Source: Tsukamurella sp. M9C (lineage in GTDB: Bacteria; Actinomycetota; Actinomycetes; Mycobacteriales; Mycobacteriaceae). Taken from it: a DNA stretch of 36,210 bases. This document shows positions 18,431 to 25,834 of the stretch, piece after piece (position 1 is the first letter of the stretch; the number at the start of each line of letters is the position of its first letter). The notes beneath the pieces are model-generated. The model saw only the letters and a program-made list of their open reading frames with translations. It searched no databases and was not told the DNA's origin. The position numbers and the translations under genes are program-made. The stretch covers positions 1-36,210 of the forward strand of contig NZ_JAIULG010000053.1 of NCBI RefSeq assembly GCF_020169415.1. Reading direction: 5' to 3'.

Positions 18431-18885
18431 TCACTCGCTCATCAATTGCGCGGCGACAGTGGCACCCAGGTTCCAGCACGCCTCGAGGTCCGCCTTCGAC
18501 GGTTTGCCCGACACGACGACGTGCGGCGTGGCCTTCACCCAACCGAGCCCGGCGGTGATCGAATCCACCGCGCGCTCGGCGCCCTCGCCGCCCTCGTTCG
18601 CGTGCAGGTACAGCCCGAACGGCCGGTCGCGCGTCGAATCGAGGCACGGGTAGTAGATCGTGTCGAAGGCGTGCTTGAGCGCCCCGGAGATGTAGCCGAG
18701 GTTCGCCGGCGAGCCGAGGACGTAGCCGTCCGCGGCCAGCACGTCCGACGCGGTCACGGCGAGCGCCGCGCGCCGCACCACCTCGACGCCCTCGATCTCG
18801 GGGTCGGTCGCCCCGGCGATCACCGCCTCGAACATCTCCTGGCAGTGCGGAGACGGCGTGTGGTGGATCACGAGGAGCACGGCCA

Positions 18886-18886
<1 letters not shown>
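18431..18886 (-). CDS. Flavodoxin/NAD(P)H-FMN reductase-like protein (Rv2771c-like)
   Basis: A 151-aa flavodoxin-fold protein beginning MAVLLVIHHTPSPHCQEMF. The HHTPSPH loop sits at the phosphate-binding position of flavodoxins. The FMN isoalloxazine loop is GSPANLGYISGALKHAFDT. It probably binds FMN and carries or transfers electrons in the cytoplasm; the partner is unknown. Third in a conserved dapB cluster, it matches the position of Rv2771c. Its ATG overlaps the preceding stop by one base (TGATG), indicating coupling. Confidence 0.82.
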
Positions 18887-20518: not shown

Positions 20519-21490
20519 ATGGACGTGACCATCCGGACCTTCGTGGACGACGCGGACGACTGCTTCGACGTCGTCCACCACGCCGCGACGGACGCCGCCA
20601 CGCGGGCGCTGGCCGCACCGTCGGGCCTGATCTGGGTGGACGTGCTCGACCCGACCGAGGCCGAGTTCGCCCCCTTCGTCCAGACCATGGGACTCGACAA
20701 GCTGGCGGTGGAGGACGCGCTCACCGTTCATGAGCGCCCGAAGTCCCTGCGCTACGGCGAGATCCTGTTCGTCACCGCCTACACGGTGGCCGAGGACGGT
20801 GCCACGAGCCGACTCTCGCTGTTCCTGTTCGAGCACGGGGTGCTGACGGTGCGCCTGGGCGAGGGCTTCCCCGTCGACGACGTGGCGGAGAACATCTCCG
20901 ACAACGCTGATCTGTTGCAGTACGGCCCGAAGTCGCTGGAGCTGATGCTGCTGGACGCGGTCGTCGACGGCTACACGGCGCGGGTGACCGCGGTCGACGA
21001 GCGGCTCGACGACGTGGAATCGATTCTGTTCGACGGCCGCTCGAGCGACCGGGTCTCCCAGGTCACGTTCGATCTGCACAAGCAAGTGGGCGAGCTGCGC
21101 CGCATCGTCCTACCGATGCGCGACGTGGTGGGCTCGGTGCTCCGGCGGGTGTCCGCGGCCCCCGATCTACACGATCTCCTGCCCTACGCCGAGGACGTCT
21201 ACGACCACACCATGCGCGCCGCGGATTGGACGGAGGGCCTGCGCGACAACGTCGAATCCGTGCGCTCGACCAACCTGGCCCTGGTCGACAACCAGCTGAA
21301 CACGGTGATGAAGAAGCTCACCAGCTGGGCGGCGATCATCGCGGTGCCGACCGCCATCACCGGCTACTTCGGCCAGAACGTGCCCTACCCGGGCTTCGGC
21401 AAGGAATGGGGTTTCTGGCTGAGCCTCCTGATGATGCTCACCCTGGCCGGCGGCCTGTACGCGGCCTTCAAGCGCCGCGGCTGGCTCTGA
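20519..21490 (+). CDS. corA: CorA-family divalent metal transporter with GQN in place of GMN
   Basis: A 323-aa protein. A large cytoplasmic alpha/beta-helical domain (about 1-250) precedes two C-terminal transmembrane helices (KLTSWAAIIAVPTAITGYFG and FWLSLLMMLTLAGGLYAAF). The selectivity signature after TM1 is GQN (285-287, YFGQNVPYPGFG) rather than the canonical GMN, so the ion preference (Mg2+, Co2+ or Zn2+) should not be assumed. The family forms pentameric inner-membrane channels. The ATG lies 6 bases after TAGGGT (leaderless). The last 23 bases overlap the 3' end of the convergent MMPL gene. Confidence 0.9.
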   Translation: MDVTIRTFVDDADDCFDVVHHAATDAATRALAAPSGLIWVDVLDPTEAEFAPFVQTMGLDKLAVEDALTVHERPKSLRYGEILFVTAYTVAEDGATSRLSLFLFEHGVLTVRLGEGFPVDDVAENISDNADLLQYGPKSLELMLLDAVVDGYTARVTAVDERLDDVESILFDGRSSDRVSQVTFDLHKQVGELRRIVLPMRDVVGSVLRRVSAAPDLHDLLPYAEDVYDHTMRAADWTEGLRDNVESVRSTNLALVDNQLNTVMKKLTSWAAIIAVPTAITGYFGQNVPYPGFGKEWGFWLSLLMMLTLAGGLYAAFKRRGWL

Positions 21491-23603
21491 ACCCCGGCCA
21501 CCAGTTGGCGGTGCCCGCGATCCGCATGAACGCCGGCAGCAGCACCAGCCGCACCAGGGTGGCGTCGAGCAGCACGGCGATCGCGAGGCCCACGCCCAAC
21601 ATCCGCATGAAGGACACCTCGGAGAAGCCGATCGCGGCGAAGACCACGGCCATGAGCAGTGCGGCGGCGGTGACCACCCGCGCGGTGCTCGCAATGCCGC
21701 GGGCCACGGCCTCGTCGTTCGCGGCGCGATCCCGGCCGGGCGATCCCTGCCACTCCTCGCGGATCCGCGAGAGCAGGAAGACCTCGTAGTCCATCGACAG
21801 CCCGAAGGCGATGCAGAACATCAGCACCGGCATGTCCGCGATGAGGTGTCCGGTCACGGTGGTCCCCAGCCCGCCCAAGTGCCCCTCCTGGAAGATCCAC
21901 ACCATCGCGCCGAAGGTCGCCGAGAGCGAGAGCACGTTGAGCACCAGCGCCTTCAGCGGCAGCAGCACGCTGCCGGTGAGCAGGAACAGCAGTAGGAAAG
22001 TGGTGATCGCGATCGCGACGAGGACCCGCGGCACCGCGCCGAGGATGGAGTCGACGGCGTCCCGGTCCGCCTGCGCCGCACCGGCGAACAGCGTCGGGGC
22101 GGGCTCGGGCACCGCGCGCAGCGCGTCCAGCTGGGTGCCGCCGTCCGCCGACCGCGGGTCGTGCTCGCTCGCCACCGTGATCAGGCGCGCGAAGCCCGCC
22201 CGGGACGTCGGATCCCCGTCGGCGACGCGGTCTCCGCGCAGCCATGTCCCGTCCGGCCCGACGACGGGGCCCGTGCCGGCGGTCCGGGACAGCTCCCGGG
22301 CGTAGTCCTCGGTGCCCGACGGTGCGCCCTCCGGCAGCAGGATCAGGACGTCTGCCGTGGGATTCGGGTGGAAGCCGGTGCGCAGGTCGTCGCCGACGGC
22401 GTGCGACGAGGCGGCGGTCGGCAGGGTCCGGTCGTCGGGGTAGCCGAGCTTAGCGCCGAGGAAGGGCGCGCCGAGTGCGACCAGCAGCGCCACCACGGCG
22501 ATCCCGAGCGGGACCGCTCGGCGTTGCACGGCCTTCACCGCGCGGTACCAGCGGGATTCGTCCGTCGGGCGCGGGCCGCGACCCACGCGGAGCCGATCGA
22601 TGCGGTCGCCCAGCAGCGTCAGGATCGCCGGTGTCACGATCAGGGTCGCGATGGCGGTGAAGCCGACGACGACCAGGCCGGCGTAGGCGAAGGAGCGCAG
22701 GAAGTACATGGGGAACAGGACCATCGCGGCGAGGCTGAGCCCGACCGTGATCGCGGAGAACAGGACCGTGCGCCCGGCCGTCGCCATGGCGGTCACGAGC
22801 GCCTCCTCGCGGCCGCGGGCGGGCACCTCCTCGCGATACCGGCTCACCACCAGCAGCGTGTAGTCGATGGCCAGCGCCAGGCTCATGGCGGTGATGAGGT
22901 TGAGCGCGAACACGGAGACGTCGGTGACCTCCGCGACGAGCCGCAGCAGCCCCGAGGTCGCGATGATCGCCGCGACCCCCACCACGACGGGCACCGCGGC
23001 GGCGACGAGCCCGCCGAACGCCCACACGAGGACGAGGAAGGTGAGCGGCAGGGCGATCAGCTCCGCCCGCACCAGATCCTTCCCGGACTGCTCGTTGATC
23101 TGCAGGTAGGTCATGGCCTCGCCGCCGGCCTCGACCCGCACCCCGTCGGGCGGGCTCGGCAGGCCGTCGACGATCGCGCGGGCGTGGTCGGGTGCGTCCC
23201 CGGTGCCGCCGGTCAGGTTCGCGACGACGAGGCCGGTGCGGCCGTCCGCCGACGTCAGGCGCGCCGCAGCGGCGGGATCGGTCCAGGCGGAGACGGCGGC
23301 CTGCACCGCAGGGGCGCGCCGGACCGCCTCCGCGATCGCGCGACCGTGGTCCGCGGCGGCCGCCGCCGCCGCGGGCGTCAGCGCGCGCACCGTCAGCACG
23401 AGGGACGACCCGCCGCGCCCGAAGTCGTCCTCGAGAACCTGCTGCGCGCGGGCGGATTCGGCGCTCGGGTCGGTACTGCCGCCGCTGCGGAGCGCGCCGC
23501 CGACGCCGGCCCCGAGCCAGCCCAGCACGACGAGCAGGAGCAACGACGCCGCGAGCACCGTGCGGGGCCGCGCGGCGACGGCGCGCGTGAGCCGGGCGAT
23601 CAC
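21468..23603 (-). CDS. MMPL-family RND lipid/small-molecule exporter
   Basis: A 711-aa protein with the RND-type arrangement: TM1 (TVLAASLLLLVVLGWLGAGV), a periplasmic loop, five helices, then the same pattern repeated. Proton-relay Asp-Tyr pairs lie in AIDYTLLVVSRYREE and GLSMDYEVFLLSRIREEW. MMPL proteins export lipids and siderophores across the inner membrane of mycolate-containing bacteria. This is the short form without the large cytoplasmic tail of MmpL3. GTG overlaps the acyltransferase stop by 4 bases (GTGA), so it is the last gene of a coupled three-gene operon and likely exports its product. The 3' end overlaps corA. Confidence 0.92.
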   Translation of the reverse strand: MIARLTRAVAARPRTVLAASLLLLVVLGWLGAGVGGALRSGGSTDPSAESARAQQVLEDDFGRGGSSLVLTVRALTPAAAAAAADHGRAIAEAVRRAPAVQAAVSAWTDPAAAARLTSADGRTGLVVANLTGGTGDAPDHARAIVDGLPSPPDGVRVEAGGEAMTYLQINEQSGKDLVRAELIALPLTFLVLVWAFGGLVAAAVPVVVGVAAIIATSGLLRLVAEVTDVSVFALNLITAMSLALAIDYTLLVVSRYREEVPARGREEALVTAMATAGRTVLFSAITVGLSLAAMVLFPMYFLRSFAYAGLVVVGFTAIATLIVTPAILTLLGDRIDRLRVGRGPRPTDESRWYRAVKAVQRRAVPLGIAVVALLVALGAPFLGAKLGYPDDRTLPTAASSHAVGDDLRTGFHPNPTADVLILLPEGAPSGTEDYARELSRTAGTGPVVGPDGTWLRGDRVADGDPTSRAGFARLITVASEHDPRSADGGTQLDALRAVPEPAPTLFAGAAQADRDAVDSILGAVPRVLVAIAITTFLLLFLLTGSVLLPLKALVLNVLSLSATFGAMVWIFQEGHLGGLGTTVTGHLIADMPVLMFCIAFGLSMDYEVFLLSRIREEWQGSPGRDRAANDEAVARGIASTARVVTAAALLMAVVFAAIGFSEVSFMRMLGVGLAIAVLLDATLVRLVLLPAFMRIAGTANWWPGFRASRGA

Positions 23604-24436
23604 AGCGCCGCGAGGAAGGAGCGGACCTCGTCGAGGCAGCCGGCCGCACGCATCCGCTCGTCCTCGAACAGGACGAGGAAGTCCGCCATCTCGAAATCGG
23701 GGTCGTACGAGGGCATGCCGCAGACGACACCGCCGTACCGGACGGCGATGCGGATCGTGGGCGGCACCAGGTCCTCGTCGGCGCCGTCGGGCCGCGGGAG
23801 CTCGCCGATGGGGACCCCGTCGACGGCGACGGGCCGGATCGGATCGGCGCGGACCGCGCCGTCCGCGAGGGCGTCGTTGTCGGCGAGGAAGCCGAGGGCG
23901 GCGCGGACCAGCGCGGCGCGCGGGTGCACGCCGTCCTCCATGCGGACGGACATGCAGCCCATCGCGAAGCGGAAGCCGGAGCGCTCGTAGAAGGCCAGCA
24001 GCGCGATCCGCAGCAGCACCGAGACCACCCCGCCGCGGTAGTCCGCCGCGATGGTGGCGCGCCCCCACTCGGCGACGTCGTCGGCCATCGCGGCGAACGC
24101 CGGGCTGAGCCGGAACATGCTGGTGGTGAACACCTCCCGCTGCCCGCTCGGGGCCGGCAGGATGATCCGGTAGCAGCCCACGATCTCGTCGGTCGGGTCG
24201 TGCCGCACGAGGAGGTGAGCGCTGTAGTCGTCGAACCGGTCCACGTCGATCGGCCGGCCGAGCCGCTCGCTGATCACTGCCCCGGGCAGCGGCGCGCCCA
24301 GCTCCGTGGAGAAGGCGTCGTACCGCAGGGCCTGTGCGCGTTCGATGTCGCGCGGGTCCTCGGCGACGAAGACCGTGAACGGAGTGCGTTCGGTCGCCGC
24401 GAAGAGCACGGTGCCCGCCGGTGTCCTCGTGGTCAT
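23600..24436 (-). CDS. OlsB-like GNAT N-acyltransferase (ornithine lipid synthase first-step type)
   Basis: A 278-aa member of the OlsB/hemolysin-like acyltransferase group. It has AQALRYDAFSTELG near 34-47, DVDRFDDYSAHLLVR, GCYRIILP, the EWGRATIAADYRGG motif (123-136), MGCMSV (159-164) and a C-terminal DFEMADFLVLFEDER. OlsB transfers a fatty acyl group from acyl-ACP to the alpha-amine of ornithine to make lyso-ornithine lipid. Here the substrate may be the N-hydroxylated amino acid made by the upstream gene (inference). The ATG overlaps the upstream stop by 4 bases (ATGA), fixing the start and excluding longer frames. Confidence 0.82.
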   Translation of the reverse strand: MTTRTPAGTVLFAATERTPFTVFVAEDPRDIERAQALRYDAFSTELGAPLPGAVISERLGRPIDVDRFDDYSAHLLVRHDPTDEIVGCYRIILPAPSGQREVFTTSMFRLSPAFAAMADDVAEWGRATIAADYRGGVVSVLLRIALLAFYERSGFRFAMGCMSVRMEDGVHPRAALVRAALGFLADNDALADGAVRADPIRPVAVDGVPIGELPRPDGADEDLVPPTIRIAVRYGGVVCGMPSYDPDFEMADFLVLFEDERMRAAGCLDEVRSFLAAL

Positions 24437-25713
24437 GGCGACTCCTCCTGGTGCAGCGCGCGGGCGATCTCGCCCGCGCGGACGGCGACGTTGGACAGCA
24501 GCGTGGTCCCGAGACCGTGGCCCGGGAGGTCGGCGCCCTGCACGTACAGGCCCGGCACCTCGGCGCCGTCGATCACGGCGCGGTGCGTGCGGGCGACGCG
24601 CACATCGGCGGCCGGCGGCGCGATGCCGTCCAACCCGCTGAGGCCGCCGGGCCGGAATCCGGTGGCGCACACCACGGCGTCGTAGGTCGCCGCGGTCCGC
24701 TCGCCGGTGGTGAGGCGGCGCAGATCGGTCGCGACGCCGCCGCCGGGCGCGGCGTTCGCGGCGACGACCTCGCTGGTGCGATGCACGCCCAATCGACTTG
24801 GGCCGCCGACCTTCTGCCGGTACCAGCGGTCGTACAGGTCGCGGGTCAGCGCGTGCTCGACCGCCGCGTAGTTGGTGTTGCCGTGCCGATGCAGCAGCGC
24901 CTCGCGCGTCTCCGGAGGCGCGACGGCGAACTCGTCGACCACGTCCGGGTCGAAGACCTGGTTGACGAAGGGACTCTCGTCGACGTCCGCGAGCCCGAAG
25001 CCGTGGAAGGCAAGGTCCACGCGCGCCCCCGCGTCGTGCAGGTGCAGCGCCACCTCGGCGGCGGACTGGCCGCCCCCCACCACGAGGAAGCGCCCGCCCG
25101 CGACCCCGTCGGAGAGCTCGCGCTCCAGCTCACCGAGCCGCGGGACGAGGTCGATGTTGTGGAAGACGCGCCGCGGGTCGAGCCCGTCCGTCCACGCGGG
25201 GAGTACGGGCCGCAGTCCGCGGGCCACGACCACCGACCGTGCCCGGGTCACTCGTTCGTCGCCGTCGGGGCCCCGATGGGCGACGGCGAACCTCGGACCG
25301 TCGGCGCAGCGGATCAGACCCGTCACCGCTCGGCCGTACCGCACCTGATCGGCGAACGACGCGGCCGCCCAGGCCAAGTAGTCCGCGAACTCCGCCCGCT
25401 CGGGGGTGAGGACGGCGCGGTTGACGAAGTCCACGAGCCGGCCCCGGGCGCCGAGGTACGCGACGAAGGAGAACGGGCTGGCCTGGTTGCGCAGCGTCAC
25501 CAGGTCCTTGAGGAAGCTGATCTGCATCGACGTGCCCGGCAGCAGCATTCCCGGGTGCCACGCGAAGGCCTCGCGGCGCTCCAGGAACCGCACGGTGCCG
25601 ATCCGGTCGGGCGACTCCGCGAGCGCGATCGCCAGCGCCAGGTTGGCGGGTCCGAATCCGACCCCGAGTACGTCGACGACGTCGCCGTCGTCCACCGGTT
25701 CCGTCGTGCGCAT
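24433..25713 (-). CDS. Lysine/ornithine N-hydroxylase (SidA/IucD/PvdA family flavin monooxygenase)
   Basis: A 426-aa class B flavoprotein monooxygenase. FAD site: DVLGVGFGPANLALAIAL (residues 14-31). Family-typical HPGMLLPGTSMQISFLKDLV and a Pro/Ser-rich NQASPFSFVAYL follow. The NADPH site is FLVVGGGQSAAEVALHL and the C-terminal motif is VVCATGFRPGGLSG. Such enzymes hydroxylate the side-chain amine of ornithine or lysine to form hydroxamate precursors. No NRPS or IucA-type siderophore synthetase is nearby. The ATG at 25713 follows a GGGAAGGG Shine-Dalgarno; ATG 25752 (13 residues longer) is an alternative, and the TTG at 25779 is unlikely. First gene of a coupled operon with the acyltransferase and MMPL genes. 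Confidence 0.85.
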   Translation of the reverse strand: MRTTEPVDDGDVVDVLGVGFGPANLALAIALAESPDRIGTVRFLERREAFAWHPGMLLPGTSMQISFLKDLVTLRNQASPFSFVAYLGARGRLVDFVNRAVLTPERAEFADYLAWAAASFADQVRYGRAVTGLIRCADGPRFAVAHRGPDGDERVTRARSVVVARGLRPVLPAWTDGLDPRRVFHNIDLVPRLGELERELSDGVAGGRFLVVGGGQSAAEVALHLHDAGARVDLAFHGFGLADVDESPFVNQVFDPDVVDEFAVAPPETREALLHRHGNTNYAAVEHALTRDLYDRWYRQKVGGPSRLGVHRTSEVVAANAAPGGGVATDLRRLTTGERTAATYDAVVCATGFRPGGLSGLDGIAPPAADVRVARTHRAVIDGAEVPGLYVQGADLPGHGLGTTLLSNVAVRAGEIARALHQEESP

Positions 25714-25773
25714 CACACCCTTCCCCACCGACGTCGGGGCGGTGCTGGGCATCCGCCTGAACGGATCGTAACC

Positions 25774-25834
25774 CTGCAAAGATCCTGTACACCGTACTTG
25801 ATGACAGATTTTTCACGCTTTGCAGTGTGAAAAA
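25774..25834. promoter_or_regulatory. Palindromic operator region upstream of the hydroxylase/acyltransferase/MMPL operon
   Basis: TTTTTCAC (25809-25816) and GTGAAAAA (25827-25834) form a perfect 8-bp inverted repeat with a 10-base spacer. CTTTGCAG (25818-25825, in the spacer) is also repeated in inverted orientation as CTGCAAAG at 25774-25781. The region is strikingly AT-rich for this genome. The A/T-only outer arms argue for a repressor site rather than a terminator of the upstream glucosidase gene. A TACGAT hexamer (25770 to 25765) may be the -10. Confidence 0.6.

Follow-up and report, generated by a model that had tools for sequence, protein, structure and literature searches.

What might be made by a flavin-dependent N-hydroxylase (NMO) whose gene overlaps, head to tail, with those of a GNAT_5 acyltransferase and an MMPL transporter? 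The question is raised by an operon of Tsukamurella sp. M9C on a stretch of 36,210 nucleotides (contig NZ_JAIULG010000053.1, positions 1 to 36,210; henceforth the window), which an earlier reading of the letters, here called the original prediction, had singled out as a candidate lipid or hydroxamate system. Comparison with related genomes shows that this acyltransferase lineage has an N-hydroxylase and a transporter for neighbours, whereas related lineages adjoin an OlsA-like gene, and we lean towards a three-gene pathway that would, with no assembly line, make and secrete ornithine or lysine in N-acylated, N-hydroxylated form. The features of the operon are as follows.

24433..25713, minus strand: NMO, predicted flavin-dependent N-hydroxylase of ornithine or lysine (Lys_Orn_oxgnase, PF13434; 311.6 bits, Pfam)
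23600..24436, minus strand: GNAT_5 acyltransferase (PF13444; 72.5 bits, Pfam), in a clade apart from the OlsA-linked OlsB type
21468..23603, minus strand: short MMPL transporter of 711 aa (PF03176; 242.6 bits, in two stretches), presumed exporter of the product
24433..24436, minus strand: ATGA start/stop overlap from NMO to acyltransferase, kept in 12/12 Tsukamurella operons examined
23600..23603, minus strand: GTGA start/stop overlap from acyltransferase to MMPL, kept in 12/12 Tsukamurella operons examined

The likely start of the NMO gene is an ATG, and its open frame extends back to a TTG at 25779. Both overlaps are exact in the window, just as they had been read originally; the count of 12 includes the window operon, a thirteenth (in genome G014) having been excluded for its broken frames.

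An acyltransferase lineage with a different partner

Profile searches for the acyltransferase covered 397 genomes of the order, 401 of the family, 394 of the class and 296 of the phylum (overlapping sets), with no more than 6 to 8 candidates scored in each genome, and neighbours were read in the fetched loci, most of the small ones spanning 1.5 kb on each side. Among the 89 non-redundant acyltransferase rows, an NMO gene lay within 1.5 kb and on the same strand in 20 and in none of the other 69 GNAT_5 rows; these 20 make up one side of a tree branch with support 100/99. A PlsC/OlsA-like gene, on the other hand, was present in the loci of 66 of the 69 (including L040, the locus of the query; the exceptions are L067, L068 and L163) and in none of the 20, nor was an OlsA-like gene found in any of 19 larger loci (17–20 kb) of the NMO-linked clade. 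Fifteen loci from the phylum search agree, with an NMO in 2/2 and a PlsC-like gene in 13/13, only five of these 13 coming from a genus (g122) that is missing from the 89 rows and the rest mostly from repeat genomes already counted. The original prediction had proposed a search for conserved co-occurrence of the gene families, and the outcome bears it out: each of the 20 clade members has an NMO for a neighbour, across three genera and in one or other of two gene orders. The lack of an adjacent OlsA, which it had also noted, holds throughout the clade. One of the three exceptional rows is a divergent GNAT_5 paralogue (L163:9411-10148, genome G251) that lacks both an NMO and a PlsC-like gene beside it; genes that read as UbiD-like lie nearby.

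In the family search, 20 genomes had an acyltransferase scoring at least 333 bits, the next best score being 249. Thirteen are Tsukamurella, three belong to genus g44, which is probably Mycobacterium, judging by a PE_PGRS-like open reading frame, and four to another Mycobacteriaceae genus, g11. In both g44 and g11 the genes run MFS, acyltransferase, NMO, the reverse of the Tsukamurella order, with an MFS pump in the place of the MMPL protein. In genome G079 the PE_PGRS-like frame (L099:11647-14256) comes next downstream after the acyltransferase and NMO genes.

The description of the acyltransferase as OlsB-like thus needs qualifying: it is right at the level of the family (PF13444), and core GNAT residues are common to this protein and the OlsB type, but the protein falls outside the lineage that stands beside OlsA-like genes. 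Its nearest NCBIfam models are two OlsB models (75.4 and 68.7 bits), the former well below the curated cut-off of 350; the comparison has little weight, because at 111 bits the OlsB-type protein of this genome falls below the cut-off as well. The predicted structure had a pLDDT of 86.8 and a pTM of 0.83 (AlphaFold), and a sequence search of the PDB returned nothing significant (best E 1.1).

Conservation within Tsukamurella

The three genes are syntenic in 13 of the 16 Tsukamurella genomes searched, the window genome included. In all 13 the acyltransferase is at least 74% identical, with the NMO gene adjoining and the MMPL gene next (both as fragments in G014). By Pfam, the operon is flanked by CorA on one side and by an MGH1-like glycoside hydrolase ("glucosidase") on the other, and in the three genomes that lack it (G006, G007 and G011) corA directly adjoins the glucosidase gene. 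Close relatives of the acyltransferase, 73–97% identical, were found in eight records named Tsukamurella. Comparison of the window with seven relatives gave ratios of nonsynonymous to synonymous substitution (dN/dS) of 0.06–0.29 for the acyltransferase, 0.11–0.24 for the MMPL protein and 0.17–0.32 for the NMO; all three genes are under purifying selection. In G014 (locus L049; assembly 83% complete) the NMO, the MMPL and a pirin-like gene are frame-broken, possibly through sequencing errors.

Apparently separate recruitment of hydroxylase and exporter

In a 40-row NMO tree, the operon's NMO is sister to other Tsukamurella NMOs, including that of the genome's own siderophore cluster (98/99), and the NMOs of g44 and g11 form a different group (81/92). 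A single clade for all 19 NMOs was rejected (p-AU 0.013 in the approximately unbiased test, 0.014 in a smaller tree), although both trees contain long branches. The MMPL protein is likewise sister to a resident Tsukamurella MMPL (100/100) in a tree of 16 rows, two of them resident Tsukamurella proteins and five from two other genera; against the curated equivalog model of MmpL3, the trehalose monomycolate exporter, it scored 318.2 bits and did not reach the cut-off of 1400. Only the acyltransferase is common to all of these operons. Since the NMOs are not one clade, and since both the NMO and the MMPL of Tsukamurella are sisters of resident genes, its hydroxylase and exporter partners seem to have been recruited around it separately. 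Replacement of the NMO within an old module would be as possible as two assemblies. The depth of the Tsukamurella acyltransferase branch is uncertain because the branch is long (2.53).

Substrate residues and the proposed pathway

Residues aligned with Q64, K69, N254, N284 and S410 of PvdA are kept in all 19 NMOs examined. In SidA and TheA the equivalent lysine, asparagines and serine are described as binding the amino acid substrate (PMC7347517, PMC12498188), which suggests that a free amino acid is hydroxylated before acylation. The reverse order, acylation and then hydroxylation, may also be possible, because the substrate of MbtG is entered as "lysine or acyl-lysine" in a review among these sources. 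The best solved relative of the NMO is a chain whose record bears the name MbtG (46% identity), followed by KtzI (39%) and PvdA (38%); lysine would be at most a slight favourite over ornithine, given that the MbtG name is a record label. The ornithine or lysine originally proposed fits the PF13434 match and the conserved residues; any choice between the two amino acids is less supported. At the third position of the NYS flavin loop, the 12 NMOs of the Tsukamurella operons have A or G and the remaining seven have S, so the two sets may differ in the cofactor that they prefer.

In the pathway that we propose, the NMO would hydroxylate the side-chain nitrogen of free ornithine or lysine, as its family and conserved residues suggest. 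The GNAT_5 enzyme would then move one fatty acyl chain from an acyl carrier protein or coenzyme A. The most likely acceptor is the hydroxylated nitrogen, in which case a hydroxamate amphiphile would result; the alpha nitrogen is a less likely one. The former site is favoured because it yields a stable hydroxamate, whereas alpha-acylation would leave a free hydroxylamine. Export would follow through the MMPL protein in Tsukamurella and through the MFS pump in the other genera. Several points weigh against this scheme. Gene adjacency alone does not prove that one enzyme takes the product of the other; the Tsukamurella acyltransferases may differ in substrate from those of the other genera, to which they are only 36–41% identical; and genome sampling was partial, so that lower-scoring matches beyond the fetched loci may include other NMO-linked members. 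A wider interpretation, which we put forward tentatively as one possibility, is that these operons make free-standing lipo-hydroxamates, each from a single amino acid and a single fatty acid, by an acyltransferase lineage that left ornithine-lipid synthesis and for which hydroxylase and exporter were recruited separately across Mycobacteriaceae, and that the product has a role outside IdeR control, as a signal, surface lipid, other metallophore or inhibitor.

Other lipid and siderophore loci and iron control

Whether OlsA or nonribosomal peptide synthetase (NRPS) genes join the three families in other genomes was a check suggested at the outset. Both an OlsB-PlsC-type pair and an NRPS cluster do exist in the genome, on other contigs. 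On contig C37 a GNAT_5 gene is next to one of PlsC type, a pair of the ornithine-lipid kind, and contig C44 carries the following locus.

G000:C44:10000-29900 (L039): separate siderophore-type cluster, with a 15/19 IdeR-like box in its divergent promoter

The C44 cluster contains genes for a dihydroxybenzoate (DHB)-AMP ligase-like protein (672.1 bits, below the cut-off of 723.55), an isochorismatase-like protein, an NMO, a PF13523 N-acyltransferase, SIP and a binding protein, together with an NRPS gene that carries condensation and AMP-binding domains. Next to the OlsB-PlsC-type pair and the DHB/NRPS cluster, the operon is thus a third system, distinct from both. Within the window, a Pfam scan of 13 of its proteins (three of the ten neighbours had no match at 1e-10) revealed no assembly-line gene, whether NRPS or NRPS-independent siderophore (NIS) synthetase, in agreement with the original prediction, and no uptake gene.

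With a DtxR/IdeR consensus, a stretch of 330 bases was searched for IdeR-like boxes at every operon start, the position of which is approximate in a few cases. The best matches at 13 Tsukamurella and seven other operon starts were 11 or 12/19, within the range of shuffled sequences. As a positive control, the C44 divergent promoter gave 15/19, a score equalled by 2 and 3 of 200 shuffles from its two sides; the start of the C44 AMP ligase gave just 11/19, which leaves one positive control site. A SIP gene (PF04954) was found in one of the seven non-Tsukamurella loci of 17–20 kb and in none of the 12 Tsukamurella ones. It lies directly after the NMO gene in a g44 genome (G289, L098:7060-7808), was not found in the two sister loci, and has a 17/19 IdeR-like box (0/200 shuffles as high) that precedes SIP and not the operon. 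These results lower the case for a siderophore without removing it. The iron-binding lipid that had been envisaged is less supported, since none of the 20 operon starts has an IdeR-like box and SIP is found in one of 19 loci.

Alternative explanations

A classical iron siderophore, here an acyl-hydroxamate produced by iron-starved cells and re-imported after binding iron three to one, would agree with an NMO family that is typical of siderophores, with the sister relationship of the Tsukamurella enzyme to the NMO of the genome's own siderophore cluster and with the boxed SIP gene of the single Mycobacterium-type locus. We nevertheless regard it as somewhat unlikely in view of operon starts that match the IdeR consensus no better than shuffles, set against the one C44 control site, of the rarity and box position of SIP, and of the window proteins scanned, among which uptake genes were absent. 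Were OlsB chemistry retained instead, the acyl chain would sit on the alpha nitrogen and the NMO would hydroxylate the head group; the resulting lyso-ornithine lipid with a hydroxylamine could serve as a membrane lipid or surfactant. The two OlsB models nearest to the acyltransferase and the common core residues speak for such a product; that no member of the clade has an OlsA-like neighbour, that an OlsB-PlsC-type pair is found elsewhere in the genome and that the NMO residues fit a free amino acid speak against it, and free hydroxylamines are unstable as end products. On balance it is unlikely.

The operon might also feed an acyl-hydroxyamino acid building block to the C44 NRPS cluster, which is in the same genome; mycobactin genes are likewise split between loci. 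However, C44 has its own NMO, PF13523 N-acyltransferase and SIP, the operon has a transporter gene coupled to it, and G007 and G011 retain a C44-type NMO without the three genes, all of which makes this supply route improbable. Least credible, and in our opinion very improbable, is that the three genes are mere neighbours, with NMO and acyltransferase in unrelated pathways; nothing speaks for it directly, the 4-nt overlaps are conserved, the pairing occurs in two orders with NMOs that are not one clade, and NMO linkage is 20/20 within the clade against 0/69 outside it.

Relation to known systems

The pathway favoured here, hydroxylation followed by acylation and export, resembles OlsB/OlsA ornithine-lipid synthesis in its GNAT_5 family and core residues. 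It differs in that the acyltransferase forms a separate clade, has an NMO partner in place of the OlsA-like acyltransferase, and scores far under the NCBIfam OlsB cut-offs (the genome's OlsB-type protein is below them too). Hydroxamate siderophore pathways combine an NMO with a GNAT (IucB, MbtK) and then an NRPS or NIS synthetase. The NMO and N-acyltransferase logic is similar, but the acyltransferase here is of PF13444 and not PF13523 as in C44, and the operon has neither an assembly enzyme among the scanned window proteins nor an IdeR-like box. FeeM-type N-acyl amino acid synthases belong to a related GNAT group (a FeeM match was sub-threshold in the Mycobacterium-type acyltransferase, 26.1 against 27 bits, and absent in that of the window), to which the operon adds a coupled NMO and transporter. 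In the oxazolone clusters tyzACB and trzAS, as described in PMC12856293, an N-acyl amino acid of mycolic-acid bacteria is also modified by a flavoenzyme. Those clusters encode a ThiF-like cyclase and a flavin-dependent oxidase, whereas here there is an N-hydroxylase and a transporter and no ThiF match in the three proteins or their scanned neighbours.

A targeted literature search, with subscription papers mostly outside it, found no published pathway of NMO/GNAT_5/transporter composition; the families are known, and no account of them joined in a stand-alone module came up. Two well-known enzyme families would here be joined in a minimal pathway, predicted to take a single amino acid through one hydroxylation and the addition of one acyl chain to one exporter. 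Partners seem to have been recruited separately in Tsukamurella and in the other genera, and the exporters differ, which suggests that mycolic-acid bacteria benefit from the product itself. In one of these bacteria, M. tuberculosis, most of the lipid features in published surveys have no database match (PMC12856293). Its small size puts the operon within reach of heterologous expression.

Upstream region and neighbouring genes

Two elements precede the operon.

25765..25799, minus strand: promoter-like element (ACGGTGTACA, about 15 nt, TACGAT), of putative function
25809..25834, no strand assigned: imperfect inverted repeat, 10/11 paired, 4-nt loop

The promoter-like element is recognisable, with substitutions, in 13/13 aligned Tsukamurella upstream regions. 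The inverted repeat had been taken for a perfect palindrome, which is incorrect given its unpaired position and loop. At the same site in the 12 other upstream regions there is a 7/8 repeat in G003 and a weaker similar sequence in G005 and G004; the other nine have no recognisable counterpart. We therefore rejected it as a conserved operator. It is possibly a hairpin belonging to the glucosidase gene, as the site is just past the glucosidase stop.

Scans of the window with Rfam and for tRNAs gave no match, nor did defence-system models, and no copies of the acyltransferase were found in a phage collection. The nearby dapB gene was rejected as a pointer to lysine, because dapB, corA and the glucosidase gene have the same order in the three genomes without the operon. 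A small gene near dapB (18431-18886 in the window) has a second, partial match beside it in L044, L047 and L230. Additional genes between MMPL and corA are variable and lie outside the module: judged by reading, an AAA-type ATPase and a TPR-like gene in L044, L048, L051 and L052, and a TspO-like gene at the MMPL/corA boundary in L043, L044 and L045.

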